From Candidatus Woesearchaeota archaeon (lineage in GTDB: Archaea > Nanobdellota > Nanobdellia > SCGC-AAA011-G17 > GW2011-AR20): DNA of 32,898 nucleotides. The notes under the pieces were generated by a model, which had not been told where the DNA came from, did no database searches, and saw only the letters and a list, made by a program, of their open reading frames with translations. Shown here piece after piece: positions 22,793-32,457 of the stretch; the first letter of the stretch is position 1, and each line of letters starts with the position of its first letter. The stretch covers positions 1-32,898 of the forward strand of contig JAGVYY010000047.1 in assembly GCA_018303005.1 (NCBI GenBank). Reading direction: 5' to 3'. The translations under genes and the position numbers were made by a program.

Positions 22793-24691
22793 ATGGACAT
22801 AAACAGGATAATAAAACGTATAAAGAAGTATAACAAGAACGCTGATTTTAATCTTGTAGCAAAATCCTATCTCTTTGCAAAAAAAGCCCATTCAGGCCAA
22901 TTAAGAAAATCAGGAAATGAGTATATTATACATCCTCTGAATGTGGCATATATTCTGGCAGATCTTAAACTAGACGAAAAGATTGTTTCATGCGCGATTC
23001 TGCATGATGTTCTTGAAGATACTAACGTGTCCCTAGAAATAATAGAAAGAGATTTTGGAAAAGAAATAGCAGGAATAATCCAGGGCGTTACCAAGATAAG
23101 CAAGATGAACTATTATGACAAAAAAGATTATCATGCAGAAACAATAAGGAAAATGCTGATAGCAACAACAAAAGATATTCGTGTCATTTTAGTAAAGTTA
23201 GCAGATCGCCTGGACAATATGAGGACTCTTCAGTATTTAGATGAGGAAAGACAGAAAAGGATTTCCAGGGAAACTCTTGAAATTTATGTGCCAATAGCTT
23301 ATCGATTAGGAATATGGAAAATCAAATGGGAACTTGAGGATTTATCTTTCAAATACCTGGAACCGTTGTTGTATAAGGAATTGAAACATAACATCGCAAA
23401 GAAAAGGAAAGAAAGGGAAAGAGAAGTAAAGAAAATAATAAAAATTGTAAGGAAGGAATTAAGAAAGAACAAAATCAGGGCAAAGGTATTTGGCAGGCCT
23501 AAAAATTTCTACAGTATATACAAAAAGATGAAGAAGAAAAATATTCCTTTTGAAAAAGTTTATGATCTGCAGGGGTTAAGAATAATAACAAAAGATATCA
23601 AAGAATGTTATGAAACTCTTGGTGTGCTGCATAACCTATGGAAGCCTATACCCAATGAATTTGATGATTATATTGCAAATCCTAAACCTAACTTATATCA
23701 AAGCATACACACAGTTGTTCTTATTGATGATCAAAAAGTAGAGTTCCAGATAAGGACAGAAAAAATGGACAGCATAGCTGAAGAAGGAATAGCTGCACAC
23801 TGGTCATATAAAGACATTGACAAGGATAGAAAATTTGAGAAAAGCCTTGGCTGGTTAAAGCAGATTCTTGAATGGAAAGAAAAAAAAGACAAAGACTTCT
23901 TGGAAACATTAAAAATTGATTTGTTTGGGGACAATATTTTTGTATTCACGCCAAAAGGTAATGTAATTGAACTTCCTAAAGACTCGACTCCAGTAGATTT
24001 TGCATACGCAGTCCATAGCCAGATTGGAGATAGATGCACAGGAGCCAGAATTAATGAAAAATTTGTAAGCCTGAGGCATATGCTGCAAAGCAATGATATT
24101 GTTGAAATCATGACTTCAAAAAACCATAAACCAAGCAGAGAATGGTTGAAATTTGTCAAGTCAGACAGAGCAAGGCAGAAGATAAAGCAGACATTAAAAG
24201 AGTTGTCTCAGGTTCCGATCCAGAACAAGCAGAATAATATAAAATATGAATGGAACGAACAAGGCTTGATATCTATAAACATAAGCAAGGCAGTTATAAA
24301 GATTGCAAAATGCTGCTCACCATTGCCGGGTGACAAGATATCAGGAATCTCCAGCAAGAGCAAGAGAGTCATGATACACAAAAATGATTGCCAGAACCTG
24401 AAGAATCCTGGAATAAATAAAAAAAGAATCAATGCGCACTGGAATGAAATGATAAAAAGCACCATTAATCTGAAAATACTGGCTATTGACCGGGTAGGTC
24501 TGCTGGCAGATATCTTGAACACAATAGCGTCTACCGGTAGAAATGTAGAGAAAGCAAGAGCAAGAGTTTTGGACAAAGAAAATTCTGAATGTATAGTAAG
24601 CCTGAAATTTGATAACTTAAATGAAATAAATGAGCTGATTAAAAGAATTAAAAAAATAGCAGATGTCAAGAATGTAAGCGTTGTAATTTAA
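22793..24691 (+). CDS. Bifunctional (p)ppGpp synthetase/hydrolase, long RelA/SpoT homolog (HD-SYN-TGS-ZFD-ACT)
   Basis: HD: YIIHPLNVAYILADLKLDEKIVSCAILHDVLEDT, KLADRLDNMRTL; synthetase: GRPKNFYSIYKKM, YDLQGLRII, PNLYQSIHT, VEFQIRTEKMDSIAEEGIAAHWSYK; TGS: IFVFTPKGNVIELPKDSTPVDFAYAVH; C-terminal ACT. Confidence 0.95.
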   Translation: MDINRIIKRIKKYNKNADFNLVAKSYLFAKKAHSGQLRKSGNEYIIHPLNVAYILADLKLDEKIVSCAILHDVLEDTNVSLEIIERDFGKEIAGIIQGVTKISKMNYYDKKDYHAETIRKMLIATTKDIRVILVKLADRLDNMRTLQYLDEERQKRISRETLEIYVPIAYRLGIWKIKWELEDLSFKYLEPLLYKELKHNIAKKRKEREREVKKIIKIVRKELRKNKIRAKVFGRPKNFYSIYKKMKKKNIPFEKVYDLQGLRIITKDIKECYETLGVLHNLWKPIPNEFDDYIANPKPNLYQSIHTVVLIDDQKVEFQIRTEKMDSIAEEGIAAHWSYKDIDKDRKFEKSLGWLKQILEWKEKKDKDFLETLKIDLFGDNIFVFTPKGNVIELPKDSTPVDFAYAVHSQIGDRCTGARINEKFVSLRHMLQSNDIVEIMTSKNHKPSREWLKFVKSDRARQKIKQTLKELSQVPIQNKQNNIKYEWNEQGLISINISKAVIKIAKCCSPLPGDKISGISSKSKRVMIHKNDCQNLKNPGINKKRINAHWNEMIKSTINLKILAIDRVGLLADILNTIASTGRNVEKARARVLDKENSECIVSLKFDNLNEINELIKRIKKIADVKNVSVVI

Positions 24692-25374: not shown

Positions 25375-27135
25375 ATGACAGCTAAAAATTCTGAATTGCC
25401 TTTTGGAATATCCCGAACAAAAAGATTAACCTGTTCAACAGCAGAAGATATTTTGTACAAGGAATTCAGGGTTTTTGACCAAGGATTTGTCCGTTTGGTT
25501 GATTATATGGGTGGAGATGACTCTGTTGTTTATGCTGCCACTGGCGGAAAAGGTTTAGATTTAGTCAACAACATCAACAATTATGATTTATTTAATTATC
25601 TGCATATGTCCGAAATGAAAGACCCCTTTGATTTTGTTCAGGTAAAACTGCATATGGAGATTCCGATTTCAAATGCTTTGTTCTGGGTCTATAGGAAACA
25701 GTTCAGGATAAACGAATATTCAGGAAGATATTCTGTAATGATTAACAAGATGCAAAGATATAACAGATATGTAATCTCGCATCTTGACACAGAAAAAAGA
25801 TTGTCAAATAAAAAGATAGAAGAGATTGCAGATAAAATAACTCAAATACAGGATAATTCAAGGGAAAATTATGATTATCTGATAGAAAAGGATTTTGCAA
25901 GAGAGCTTTCCAGGATAGGACTGCCTCTATCAAATTATACTGCTTTTTATTTGTCTGCCAGTCTGAATGACCTGCTTGATGCTGTTAATTTAAGCAAGAA
26001 AAGATACAGAAACAATCCGGATTTATCTATTGTAGGTGATGCTGTTGATGATATCATTGAAAATATTGCTCCTTTAGTAACTCATTCTTATTGGCATCAA
26101 AGAGAGAGAAATAATGCAGAACATTTAGAAAAACATTTAGATTTAAAAGTTAACTATGACCTTCTTGAAAAAAATCCTGAATATGATCAAAAAGGTAGAT
26201 TCGGCATAAGCGATACCAAAAGATTGACTGTTCCTGAAGCTGAAGAAATCCTTTTCAAGCCTGAACTTTTCTTAGGAAACAGCTGGTTTATGCCAACAGA
26301 TTATATGGGCTCTGATTCGTCAATAGTTCAGTCTGCCAGAGTTAGCTATGGCGCAGGCACCAAAGATGTAAGCACTGACAAAACACTTATAAGATATCTA
26401 AAGAGGCATAAGCATACAACTCCATTTGAACATGTAAGCCTTCAATTTGAAGCTAAAACACCTATATTTAACTCACCAAGACAATGCCTAAGGCACAGAA
26501 CAATGAACAGAGAAGGCGTTTTGGGGGAGTTTGTTCCTCTAAAAGACTGGTATCATGTTCAAGAAGAACAAATGAGAGAGCAATCATCAGCTAACAGACA
26601 AGGCAGAGGCCATGAGTTAGATGATATAACAAAGAACGAAATAAGAGGCAGTCTTGAATCAGTATTCAGAAATCAATTAAAAATAAGAGAAGAAATTGAA
26701 GATGTTTCAATGCCGAAATTTATTAGTTCGGAAATAGCTGGTGTTGGCTTTTTAAATTTATGGAGCGCAAACCAGGATCTGCACAATGCCTTTCATTTTT
26801 TAAGTCTAAGAGCTGACAAACATGCCCAATACGAAATCATGGAACTGGCAAACAGGTATATGAATTTTGTTTCTAAGGTTGCACCTATTGCTTATCAGGC
26901 ATGGCTGGATTATGAGAAGAACTCTGTAAGGATAAATGATTCTGAAAAAGATCTGATCGCAAAAATGATAAGAGAAGGAAAGACAGAAATTCCGTTAACC
27001 TGGTTTAGAGAAAAAAACTGGACCTTACCAGATAAAAAAACAGGTACAGAAACACTTAACAGAGAAGCTAATGAATTGACTGAAAAAATAAAATCTATTT
27101 TAAGGGATGAACAAGGTAATTCAGAGAATGAATGA
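25375..27135 (+). CDS. thyX: Tandem (two-domain) flavin-dependent thymidylate synthase ThyX
   Basis: Internal repeat FGISRTKRLT..AEDIL / FGISDTKRLTVPEAEEIL; N-domain RINEYSGRYS, C-domain PRQCLRHRT and LRADKHAQYEI. Confidence 0.85.
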   Translation: MTAKNSELPFGISRTKRLTCSTAEDILYKEFRVFDQGFVRLVDYMGGDDSVVYAATGGKGLDLVNNINNYDLFNYLHMSEMKDPFDFVQVKLHMEIPISNALFWVYRKQFRINEYSGRYSVMINKMQRYNRYVISHLDTEKRLSNKKIEEIADKITQIQDNSRENYDYLIEKDFARELSRIGLPLSNYTAFYLSASLNDLLDAVNLSKKRYRNNPDLSIVGDAVDDIIENIAPLVTHSYWHQRERNNAEHLEKHLDLKVNYDLLEKNPEYDQKGRFGISDTKRLTVPEAEEILFKPELFLGNSWFMPTDYMGSDSSIVQSARVSYGAGTKDVSTDKTLIRYLKRHKHTTPFEHVSLQFEAKTPIFNSPRQCLRHRTMNREGVLGEFVPLKDWYHVQEEQMREQSSANRQGRGHELDDITKNEIRGSLESVFRNQLKIREEIEDVSMPKFISSEIAGVGFLNLWSANQDLHNAFHFLSLRADKHAQYEIMELANRYMNFVSKVAPIAYQAWLDYEKNSVRINDSEKDLIAKMIREGKTEIPLTWFREKNWTLPDKKTGTETLNREANELTEKIKSILRDEQGNSENE

Positions 27136-27766
27136 TGGATTATTCATAACATTTGAAGGACCAGACGGGAACGGAAAATCCACTCAGATAAGATTATTGA
27201 AAGAATACCTTGAGAAAAAAGAGTTAAGTGTTATTGTAACTCGCGAACCAGGAGCCTTGGACATAGGGAAAAAAATAAGGGACCTACTTTTAAACCCGGT
27301 TTACAAGGATCAGATGACACCTGAAGCAGAATTGTTCTTGTACGAAGCTGACCGTGCATTGCATACCAAGAATCTTATAATTCCGGCATTGAAAAATGGA
27401 AGCATAGTAATATCAGACAGATACTATGATTCAACAACAGCATATCAGGGTGTTGCCGGAAAGATTGATCTGGGCCTTGTTCTTTTGTGTAATAAAATAG
27501 CTTCCTATGGATTAATACCAGATATAACATTCTATCTTCATGCTGAATTAGATGATATAAGGAGAAAAACAACAACAGAAGAATTTGGCGTTGCAGATAG
27601 ACCAGAATCAAAGCCAGATGATGAAAAACAGAAGAGAATTGATGGGTTCTATGCCTTGTCTACCTTAGAACCTGAAAGAATAAAACTAATAAAATATATA
27701 CCGGACAAGATTGATGCTATGCAGTCAGAAATAAGGAAATATGTTGACAAAATCCTAAAAAGTTAG
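27128..27766 (+). CDS. tmk: Thymidylate kinase
   Basis: ITFEGPDGNGKSTQ P-loop, TREPGALDIGKKIRDLLL, SDRYYDSTTAYQG; ATG 27128 overlaps the thyX stop (listed ORF begins 27107). Confidence 0.92.
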   Translation: MNDGLFITFEGPDGNGKSTQIRLLKEYLEKKELSVIVTREPGALDIGKKIRDLLLNPVYKDQMTPEAELFLYEADRALHTKNLIIPALKNGSIVISDRYYDSTTAYQGVAGKIDLGLVLLCNKIASYGLIPDITFYLHAELDDIRRKTTTEEFGVADRPESKPDDEKQKRIDGFYALSTLEPERIKLIKYIPDKIDAMQSEIRKYVDKILKS

Positions 27767-27796: not shown

Positions 27797-29119
27797 ATGA
27801 TAATCGGAACAAGAGAAGATCCTGAAAAATGGTTTAATACAGGTCTTATAAAAGCAACAGACATCAAAGATAACAACAAATTAATAACCAGTGAGGCTAA
27901 AACATTAGATGAAATAATCGAAGAGTTTTATGCTCTTAGGCATGATGAAGCCCTAAAAATAAATCAAGAAATACTGCCTGCTGAAGTATACCATTACAAA
28001 AGAGAGCTGTATAAGAAAAACAATAGAATTTATTCAATTAATAAATCCTATAAAGATACAAACCCGGGACCAAGAGAAGTGTGGAAATATGGGGCCAGGC
28101 TTTTATTAAGAAATGAAAATGGCGGCATAACCTGGACACTAAAACAAGGTTCTATAGAACAGTTTGATCTTGCCGGTATCTTTGCAAGGAACATTAAGAA
28201 TTTTATTGAGGAAAATGAAGATACAAGGCTGACAGGTCTTTCTCTCAGGTTTAACCAGAGTCTACTTTATCTCCCTGTGCTGCAGATAATCAGGGGAAGA
28301 GAATACTCTAATTTTTTAATGTCTGAAAAAGCAGAAGAAAAGCATGAAGGGCTGACATACAAGATTAATGATTATGGTGATGAAAGTGTTATTGGAATAC
28401 CTTCAAGGGAAAAATACAATATTTATCTGAATGGAAAAAACAAGAAAACTTACATAATTCACAAAGTTAAGTTCAGAAATTTGCCAGTTAATGAAACCAA
28501 TCTAAACTTAAGCTCTGTGTATGAAATAGAGGCTATCTGCAACTGCGAGTTTGCATTTAACATGAGCCTTCATAAAAGATTTAAAAGATCTGAGCAGCTG
28601 GTTGATGCTCATGTAAACACTGGTTATTCATTAGATTTTTTCCATAGAACCAGAGGATTAGAAAATATAGAAAAAGAGATACATAATAAGAGATTAAAAT
28701 TACAGGAAACAAGAGATCAATCAGTAATAAATGAGCTCTTAGCCAATATTACATCGCTTGATAAACAAACAGATGAATTTGTGAGAGAAAGCCCAAAGTT
28801 GCTCAGACTATTTACCCTAGATATATTGTTTGGGGGCACAATTCCTTATTTTCATAATGTTCTTGACAGAAAAGCTGTCATTGAAAATAATAGTAGGCTA
28901 AGACCTCTTGATGAGATAGAAAAAGAGATATTAACCCTTAGAAACATTGTTTATCAGTCCAGGAAATATGGTGTTGATCCAACAATAAGATACGGCTCAA
29001 CACTAGTGCCTGTGATATATCTTGAAAATCCGTATAGTTTCACAATTGACAGCCTTAAAAAAGCTGACACAGAGTCAAAGAAAATAAAAAGGGACAATTT
29101 ATCAGGACTTATTTATTGA
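27797..29119 (+). CDS. Unknown protein
   Basis: Long ORF in the same array as thyX-tmk; no motif recognised. Confidence 0.6.
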   Translation: MIIGTREDPEKWFNTGLIKATDIKDNNKLITSEAKTLDEIIEEFYALRHDEALKINQEILPAEVYHYKRELYKKNNRIYSINKSYKDTNPGPREVWKYGARLLLRNENGGITWTLKQGSIEQFDLAGIFARNIKNFIEENEDTRLTGLSLRFNQSLLYLPVLQIIRGREYSNFLMSEKAEEKHEGLTYKINDYGDESVIGIPSREKYNIYLNGKNKKTYIIHKVKFRNLPVNETNLNLSSVYEIEAICNCEFAFNMSLHKRFKRSEQLVDAHVNTGYSLDFFHRTRGLENIEKEIHNKRLKLQETRDQSVINELLANITSLDKQTDEFVRESPKLLRLFTLDILFGGTIPYFHNVLDRKAVIENNSRLRPLDEIEKEILTLRNIVYQSRKYGVDPTIRYGSTLVPVIYLENPYSFTIDSLKKADTESKKIKRDNLSGLIY

Positions 29120-29970: not shown

Positions 29971-30594
29971 ATGAAAAAGATACTAAGAAGATTTAGATTT
30001 TCAAAGCACGAAGTTATCGACCTGTTAAAGGCATGGATAGTTATTTCATTGGCATTTGCTATTGTTTTAACCCCTAACAAATTCTCGATGGACCTGCTTT
30101 ATAATATACTACTCGCAGCCATAACAGTGGGTGTTGGTTTTTTACTGCATGAACTAGCGCATAAGAAACTAGCGCAAAAATATGGCTGCTTGGCTGAATT
30201 TATTGCATTTGATTCAATGCTGCTGTTTGCATTGCTGACAAGCTTCTTAGGCATAGTGTTTGCAGCTCCAGGTGCTGTCTTTATTTCAGGAAATGTAAAC
30301 ATAGAAAGAAATGGGAGGATATCGGCAGCAGGCCCTATAACAAATCTGATATTGGCCTTTATATTCCTGATAATGCAATTTTTTACAGTTTCAGGAACAT
30401 TCTTAGAACAGATAGCTTCCTACGGGTTTATTGTCAATTCATGGCTTGCCTTGTTCAACATGATACCATTCTGGAACTTTGACGGCAAGAAAGTGTTTTA
30501 CTGGAACAAGACAGTTTATTTAACAATAGTGGTTATAGCTGTTGTATTCCTATTTTTTATTAATTCAATAATACAGATTATACACTTACTATAG
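29971..30594 (+). CDS. Site-2-protease-like (M50) membrane metalloprotease
   Basis: LLHELAHKKLAQKYG (HExxH) in a membrane context and LFNMIPFWNFDGKKVF (second metal-ligand motif). Confidence 0.85.
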   Translation: MKKILRRFRFSKHEVIDLLKAWIVISLAFAIVLTPNKFSMDLLYNILLAAITVGVGFLLHELAHKKLAQKYGCLAEFIAFDSMLLFALLTSFLGIVFAAPGAVFISGNVNIERNGRISAAGPITNLILAFIFLIMQFFTVSGTFLEQIASYGFIVNSWLALFNMIPFWNFDGKKVFYWNKTVYLTIVVIAVVFLFFINSIIQIIHLL

Positions 30595-32457
30595 TTTCTT
30601 CTTTTTCTTAATGTAAGAATACAATTTTTCCATATTGTCAATTAAAGAATAAAAATTCCTTGCAAAAAGTATGCTGTTTAAATCCCCTGATTCTAATCTT
30701 TCAAGTGAAGTATTATGCAAATATATTGTTACGTTTTTATCCAAAACATATTCAAAATTATACATGGTGTCTCCTAAGTCTGCATCGTTAAATAACTCCA
30801 GGTTTCTTCTGTAAGTTTCTTTATTAGAATAACAGGCTACAATCCTTCTTGCAGTATCTACATCTCTGCCATTTATATAGGTCATGAAAGCTGCTTTCCT
30901 TTGAACATTTTTTCTTAATTTTGAGAGCTCTGCTGCAGCATTGTAGGTTAGAAGGCCTTTTCTATACATATCTTTGATAGAATTATTTGATTCAACAAAT
31001 CCATATGCAGTTCTTAATGTGCTTCTGCTCATGCCAAGCTTGTCAGCTATATCCTGTTTCTTTAGATTACTGCCATTAAGTCTTGCCTGTTCCTCTCTAA
31101 GCCTTATCCATTTATGAATTGCTGAAGCCCTTTCATCAGGCCTGTCCTCTTCATGAAACTCTGCTTCAAATTGCAGTATTCTTCTTTCTACAGGACTTAA
31201 TTCTCTAGTTAAACATATTGCTTGCCTGACCCCAATATTTCTTAATGCCATTAATCTCCGATGGCCATCAACAACATCATATCTGGCATTATTTTTTGAT
31301 ACAACCAAAGGCTGTATTTGGCCAATTTCATTTATACTTTCTTCAAGATCCTTTATACCTTCAGGATCATAAGTTTGTCTTGGTTGATTAACATCATCAT
31401 CTAAAAGGCTTAAATCAATTAACTTTAGTTCTGGAACACATGCACTAACATTTGCTATGTTAAAATTTTTCTTAAGAATTAAATCTTTTTGTGATGTTCC
31501 ATCATTGATAGCACTTAATATTCTTTTTAATCTACCTTGATTTAATTTTGCTTCAAGACTTTTCTTAATAGAGTTTAACATATATAATTTTTCTGCTATG
31601 TTTTGAACATCCACGTTTGTATCAGATTGTTTATATTTAATATATTCAAGTGTTGCTATTAACACCCTATTAGCGCTGCTAAGGTAATGGATTAATTCAA
31701 TGTTCTTTTTTGGTTCATGTTTTTCCTCTATAATTAATTCAAAATTATCATACCGATATCCATTTTTTTTATTAATCTCATCTAATGTTGCAGATACTAT
31801 CTCTTCTATATCCGCTAGTCTGCCATTAAACTTTTGTACAGCTAAAAGCTGTTTATCTTCAGGCAATTTTGATATTGCCACTGCTTTGCCAAAGCTGTAT
31901 CTGTTCTTTATGACTAATTCCTGAATTTTTTTGTCTAAGGAAACAAAGGCAAAATAATCCCTGATAGTAGATTCACTTCTGCCTATTATAGCAGAAAAAT
32001 CTGTTAGTGTCAGTTTTTCCCTGTATTCTTGCATATCTGCTGGAGAATAGTTATCCAAGAATTTTGGGTTTGTGCCAAGCTTCTCGCTTACAAGGTTTTT
32101 ATAAAAGTTAAAAGCAGAATTAGCCATCTCGCCAGGATTAATATGCCTTTTTGTATTTTCAGCTAATTGTATTGTAATTATCTGCTCTTCTGTTAAATTT
32201 GGTTTGTATATAGCATCCACATCTCTTCCTAGGATTTCACAGCATCTTAGCCTTCTCTCGCCTGCAACTAATGCATATTTTTTTTCAGAATCTTCAGAAT
32301 TAAATGAATTCGTAACAATAATAGGTTGTATCAGACCTCTTCTCTCAATAGAGTTTAATAAATCTCCTAAATCTTTCCTCTTGAATTTTCTATAGTTTTT
32401 TCCTGTTTCAATATATTTAGGTTTTATTCTTATTATCCCATCAGTTAGAGTTTCCAT
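30589..32457 (-). CDS. Tandem ParB-like protein (two ParB N-terminal domain + HTH units)
   Basis: Unit 1 ALVAGERRLRCCEILG, AENTKRHINPGEMA, DFSAIIGRSESTIRDYFAF; unit 2 NQPRQTYDPEGIKDLEESI, DVVDGHRRLMALRNIG, IADKLGMSRSTLRTAYGF. Confidence 0.85.
   Translation of the reverse strand: METLTDGIIRIKPKYIETGKNYRKFKRKDLGDLLNSIERRGLIQPIIVTNSFNSEDSEKKYALVAGERRLRCCEILGRDVDAIYKPNLTEEQIITIQLAENTKRHINPGEMANSAFNFYKNLVSEKLGTNPKFLDNYSPADMQEYREKLTLTDFSAIIGRSESTIRDYFAFVSLDKKIQELVIKNRYSFGKAVAISKLPEDKQLLAVQKFNGRLADIEEIVSATLDEINKKNGYRYDNFELIIEEKHEPKKNIELIHYLSSANRVLIATLEYIKYKQSDTNVDVQNIAEKLYMLNSIKKSLEAKLNQGRLKRILSAINDGTSQKDLILKKNFNIANVSACVPELKLIDLSLLDDDVNQPRQTYDPEGIKDLEESINEIGQIQPLVVSKNNARYDVVDGHRRLMALRNIGVRQAICLTRELSPVERRILQFEAEFHEEDRPDERASAIHKWIRLREEQARLNGSNLKKQDIADKLGMSRSTLRTAYGFVESNNSIKDMYRKGLLTYNAAAELSKLRKNVQRKAAFMTYINGRDVDTARRIVACYSNKETYRRNLELFNDADLGDTMYNFEYVLDKNVTIYLHNTSLERLESGDLNSILFARNFYSLIDNMEKLYSYIKKKKKL

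Follow-up and report, generated by a model that had tools for sequence, protein, structure and literature searches.

How could a flavin-dependent thymidylate synthase (ThyX) work if its polypeptide carries two ThyX domains, each with part of its active site replaced? The question is raised by a tandem thyX gene in contig JAGVYY010000047.1 of a Candidatus Woesearchaeota archaeon (GenBank assembly GCA_018303005.1). The contig stretch, 32,898 nucleotides long and analysed as a whole, is referred to below as the window.

Two incomplete ThyX domains in one reading frame

The thyX reading frame is intact, starting at an ATG and containing no internal stops (Table 1). The Pfam Thy1 and NCBIfam TIGR02170 profiles each match two stretches of its product, with scores that pass the curated cut-offs (139 bits against 24.8 for PF02511; 152.9 against 87.9 for TIGR02170). 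The two halves are recognisable repeats (35% identity over 92 amino acids, E=2e-14, FGIS-TKRLT included), and the initial annotation was correct in describing the protein as an internal duplication. Assembly duplication as the source of the two halves is ruled out by the low protein identity in the alignable part and by a DNA-level comparison that found no long repeat between them; having diverged at the DNA level, the halves cannot be an assembly artefact. An AlphaFold2 model of the whole chain, computed from a 62-row alignment, reached a pLDDT of 85.6 and a pTM of 0.85, with weaker regions in the linker (~250-280) and in a loop at 110-140; it replaced a model obtained from 10 tandem sequences (pLDDT 60.7). 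Comparison of the model with Thermotoga maritima ThyX (TM0449) by Foldseek gave TMt values of 0.81-0.89, which places the modelled chain in the ThyX fold. No tandem ThyX structure was found in the PDB, where the longest match spans 270 amino acids.

Table 1. Features of the tandem thyX locus. Residue numbers in the first column are those of the window protein; Tm denotes T. maritima ThyX numbering.
Feature	Position	Strand	Basis
Tandem thyX gene, 586 aa	25375..27135	+	Profile matches, translated ORF
N-terminal ThyX domain, ~residues 10-250; putative dUMP-side donor	25402..26124	+	Alignment
Tyr106, at Tm R78 position; Tyr in 11/11 family-1 N-domains	25690..25692	+	Alignment
NEYSGRY (113-119), Tm N85, E86, S88, R90, Y91; dUMP-binding and lid residues kept	25711..25731	+	Alignment
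RELSR (176-180); R180 is Tm R147, kept	25900..25914	+	Alignment
Interdomain linker, ~residues 251-273; lower model confidence	26125..26193	+	AF2 model
C-terminal ThyX domain, ~residues 274-535; putative FAD-side donor	26194..26979	+	Profile matches, alignment
HTTPFE (347-352), Tm H53, T55, E58 kept; putative third-subunit role	26413..26430	+	Alignment
PRQCLRHR (368-375); Q75, R78-H79-R80 kept	26476..26499	+	Alignment
EGVLGEF (380-386); N85, E86, S88, R90, Y91 lost in C-half	26512..26532	+	Alignment
Ser452, at Tm R147 position; Arg in 9/11 family-1 C-halves	26728..26730	+	Alignment
LHNAFHFLSLRADKHAQ (469-485); position 165 is His, R174 and H178 kept	26779..26829	+	Alignment
tmk (dTMP kinase), overlaps thyX stop; next pathway step	27107..27766	+	Profile matches

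Both halves were compared with 143 single-domain ThyX proteins, using T. maritima (Tm) numbering. Mapping 16 active-site positions on T. maritima ThyX revealed a non-overlapping division. The N-half keeps the dUMP-side residues N85, E86, S88, R90, Y91 and R147 and is changed at the others (H53M, T55D, E58D, Q75F, R78Y, H79R, R80K, R165N, R174S and H178R). Conversely, the C-half keeps the FAD-side residues H53, T55, E58, Q75, R78-H79-R80, R174 and H178 and carries N85E, E86G, S88L, R90E, Y91F, R147S and R165H, the last of these matching the norm among single-domain relatives, where position 165 is mostly His. The alignment to T. maritima ThyX upholds the motifs quoted in the initial annotation, with RHR lost and NExSxRY kept in the N-domain and the reverse in the C-domain. 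The same split is apparent from a phmmer search of the PDB, in which the C-half matches T. maritima ThyX up to and including RHR, the N-half takes over from NE-SGRYS to the end of the arginine helix, and the C-half returns at LRAD. Neither half by itself has the RHRx7S motif in full together with R147 and R174, and the union of the halves does; on this pattern the window protein is a variant of the ThyX family and not a canonical single-domain ThyX.

Predicted subunit roles and number of sites

In M. tuberculosis ThyX (MtbThyX), the FAD of subunit A is held by the RHR motif of that subunit together with S71 and R190 of subunit B, and dUMP is contacted by R95 and R199 of subunit A and by R87, S105 and R107 of subunit C, whose Y108 forms a lid (PMC6514825). 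In Tm numbering these contacts include R78 and R174 (A), T55 and R165 (B) and S88, R90 and Y91 (C). H53 sits on "monomer-3" of ThyX (PMC11940539). In the T. maritima enzyme, R174 activates dUMP, and the S88A, R90A and Y91A changes strongly slow the dUMP-triggered step (PMC8316439).

Mapping the published MtbThyX contacts onto the retained residues supports the earlier proposal of a composite site shared between the halves, and brings in a further, third subunit role, that of H53/T55/R165, which was absent from the proposal. The two sets of retained residues do not share one side of the interface: the C-half would take roles A and B, the N-half role C. This assignment would satisfy all the published contacts at once, with no contradictions, and a complete three-subunit site would form only if both FAD-side roles were played by C-halves and the dUMP-side role by an N-half. 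Most probably a ThyX gene bearing an N-terminal extension was duplicated and then fused, and two chains of the product would assemble into a tetramer with pseudo-222 symmetry and four ThyX domains. In such a tetramer, C-halves would bind FAD via their own RHR motif and R174, with H53, T55 and H165 donated by the neighbouring C-half, and N-halves would use S88, R90, Y91 and R147 to hold the phosphate of dUMP and to close over the site. Given 222 symmetry, two sites would therefore be complete, and the symmetry-related ones, which need RHR on an N-half, would be dead; two chains would thus form two sites in place of the usual four. The window protein resembles single-domain ThyX/FDTS (PF02511, TIGR02170; TM0449, MtbThyX) in fold, in FAD and dUMP residues and, if both halves are counted together, in its three-subunit composite site. 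It differs in consisting of two fused, diverged halves, each incomplete, and in the two sites predicted per four domains.

Two families of tandem ThyX and their origin

The same tandem architecture was found in several further genera of the window's order and class. As defined here, family 1 has S88/R90/Y91 without RHR in the N-half, and RHR without S88/R90, plus S/T55 and H53, in the C-half; this pattern is present in all 11 distinct proteins of the set, the window protein included, both halves of which were aligned with the 143 single-domain proteins. Family-1 N-halves invariably contain S88, R90, Y91, E86 and R147 (N85 in 10/11) and never R78, which is always replaced by Tyr, nor H53, E58 or R174. 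All 11 C-halves hold H53, S/T55, E58, Q75, R78, H79, R80, R174 and H178, and none holds S88 or R90. Among the single-domain proteins, nearly all hold every key position (R78 and R80 in 143/143; H79, S88 and R90 in 141-142), position 165 varying and being mostly His. The complementary loss is thus conserved throughout family 1 for RHR/SxRY and for R174/H178. Of the second split put forward in the initial annotation, the LRAD side (R174/H178) stands in 11/11, but loss of the arginine helix (R147) from the C-half is confined to the window protein, where it is Ser, and one other member. The N-half and C-half trees are largely congruent.

The family-1 records are MAGs of Woesearchaeota or Nanoarchaeota, an archaeon, and one MAG under the label "bacterium" that encodes exactly the same protein as a genome from the window's order. 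A pattern-based scan of 85,462 genomes, which distant members can escape, returned full-length matches only in this DPANN set and the "bacterium" MAG. No family-1 tandem was found among the best 80 matches in a scan of viral contigs, as judged by match spans of ~0.5-1 kb; phage matches covering >80% of the query seem to be single ThyX genes that each align with both halves, since those listed span ~0.8-0.9 kb. Other genomes of the window's order carry ordinary single-domain ThyX with complete motifs, and one of these proteins (L012) has the TKRLT-AEEILF extension common to both tandem halves.

Weak matches in DPANN genomes turned out to represent another, distant tandem ThyX, family 2, defined here by an N-half that carries S/T55, a C-half with Arg at that position, and branching on the Mtb-like side. 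In Chloroflexota, at least two PF02511 matches occur in ~60 of 151 genomes, mostly in a single frame of 470-640 aa. Forty family-2 proteins (36 from Chloroflexota) were aligned using an Mtb-like reference. Their N-halves contain S88, R90 and R147 in 40/40 cases, Y91 in 39, R80 in 32 and R78 in 3; their C-halves contain RHR in 40/40 and R174 in 39/40. S/T55 lies in the N-half in all 40, with Arg in the C-half in 39, the reverse of family 1. The window protein, with T55 in its C-half, groups with Tm-like ThyX and lies outside family 2. Two Chloroflexota proteins (L238 and L243) retain RHR as well as SxRY in the N-half and are possible intermediates in RHR loss. As R165 is present in most family-2 halves of both kinds, the third role is assigned on the strength of S/T55, with H53 in half of the sequences. 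The published contacts, with S/T55 in the N-half, imply that role B belongs to the N-half in family 2, which would leave the number of sites unchanged and keep a different dyad. Valas & Bourne remarked in 2009 on an uncharacterised ThyX "domain duplication" of Chloroflexi (PMC3224940), which is probably family 2. The Chloroflexi proteins share with the window protein the tandem arrangement, S88/R90/Y91/R147 in the N-half, RHR/R174 in the C-half and, usually, a genome devoid of ThyA; they differ in their Mtb-like branch and in the half that carries S/T55. No report of a complementary residue split in tandem ThyX was found in the open-licence literature, where that 2009 remark on duplication was the only mention of a tandem or fused ThyX to come up.

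A maximum-likelihood tree, built with the catalytic columns removed and with one Mtb-like single-domain protein only, separates both halves of family 1 and the Tm-like single-domain proteins from both halves of family 2 and the Mtb-like protein by a 99/99 branch found in 100% of bootstraps. A quick tree agrees, placing the family-1 halves with the Tm-like proteins and away from those of family 2. Two independent duplications are favoured by these data, although not proven. The alternative is a single ancient duplication behind both families, from which the pattern of a dUMP-side N-half and an FAD-side C-half was inherited and is not convergent. The same N/C orientation in both families fits such an ancestor, and AU tests of constrained trees are only moderate (p-AU 0.068 for the two N-halves together, 0.031 for the two C-halves); set against the 99/99 branch and the presence of S/T55 in opposite halves, a single origin seems unlikely. 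That tandem ThyX arose at least twice with complementary loss, and that the two families kept different 222 dyads, is the reading to which we lean: the two FAD-binding halves would be related by the A-B axis in family 1 and by the A-D axis in family 2.

Function of the tandem protein

The C-half could conceivably be the whole enzyme, assembling as a normal homotetramer in which residues have been relocated, with the N-half as a structural or regulatory pseudo-domain. It does fit ThyX models better and holds most catalytic positions. However, S88 and R90 are missing from all 11 family-1 C-halves and present in all 11 N-halves, a decaying pseudo-domain would not be expected to hold S88/R90/Y91/R147 invariant, and the same split recurs in family 2, all of which makes this explanation very improbable.

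The gene's surroundings point to thymidylate synthesis. The tmk gene adjoins tandem thyX in most related loci, following it directly in L020, L022-L026, L186 and L187, and an archaeal MAG (L021:281-2791, + strand) encodes a natural ThyX-ThyX-Tmk fusion of 837 aa. No ThyA match was found in the window's assembly, and PF00303 was likewise without a match in 37 of the 40 tandem genomes searched (that assembly and 36 others). With tmk adjacent or fused and ThyA mostly absent, the tandem protein most likely serves as the working thymidylate synthase. The divergence of the halves, and the failure to find serine hydroxymethyltransferase (SHMT, PF00464; present in 14/14 control genomes), an enzyme that bears on the methylene supply for dTMP, in the window's 83%-complete assembly, might suggest some other flavin- or nucleotide-dependent job, but the complete union of residues, the adjacent or fused tmk and the lack of ThyA leave this scarcely credible. 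We are thus largely confident in viewing the protein as a flavin-dependent thymidylate synthase, a duplicated and fused ThyX that would form a pseudo-222 tetramer with two sites and hand its dTMP to the adjacent Tmk.

The window holds other genes of note. A full-length RelA/SpoT-type protein (HD, synthetase, TGS and ACT) is encoded at 22793-24691 (+), next to an archaeal-type dCMP kinase gene, in this archaeal-looking genome. The 440-aa ORF after tmk (27797-29119, +) has no Pfam or NCBIfam matches. A second internally duplicated protein, 622 aa long, in which ParB_N and ParB HTH stretches each occur twice, is encoded at 30589-32457 (-).

The ThyX of Chlamydia trachomatis is a long protein (~530 aa) with published biochemistry and is possibly tandem, in which case it would be a characterised example. 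It is cited as Griffin et al. 2005 (PMC8316439).

A motif check of one half alone would label a tandem enzyme of this kind inactive. The window protein illustrates a route from an obligate homomer with shared sites to an obligate pseudo-heteromer, by fusion followed by complementary loss. If there were indeed two origins, duplication with complementary degeneration could be tested within one enzyme in two natural replicates, with a clear readout in how many FAD sites form and how they are arranged. If the two families also kept different dyads, they would represent convergent subfunctionalisation, in which one fold reached two alternative geometric solutions for a composite site.
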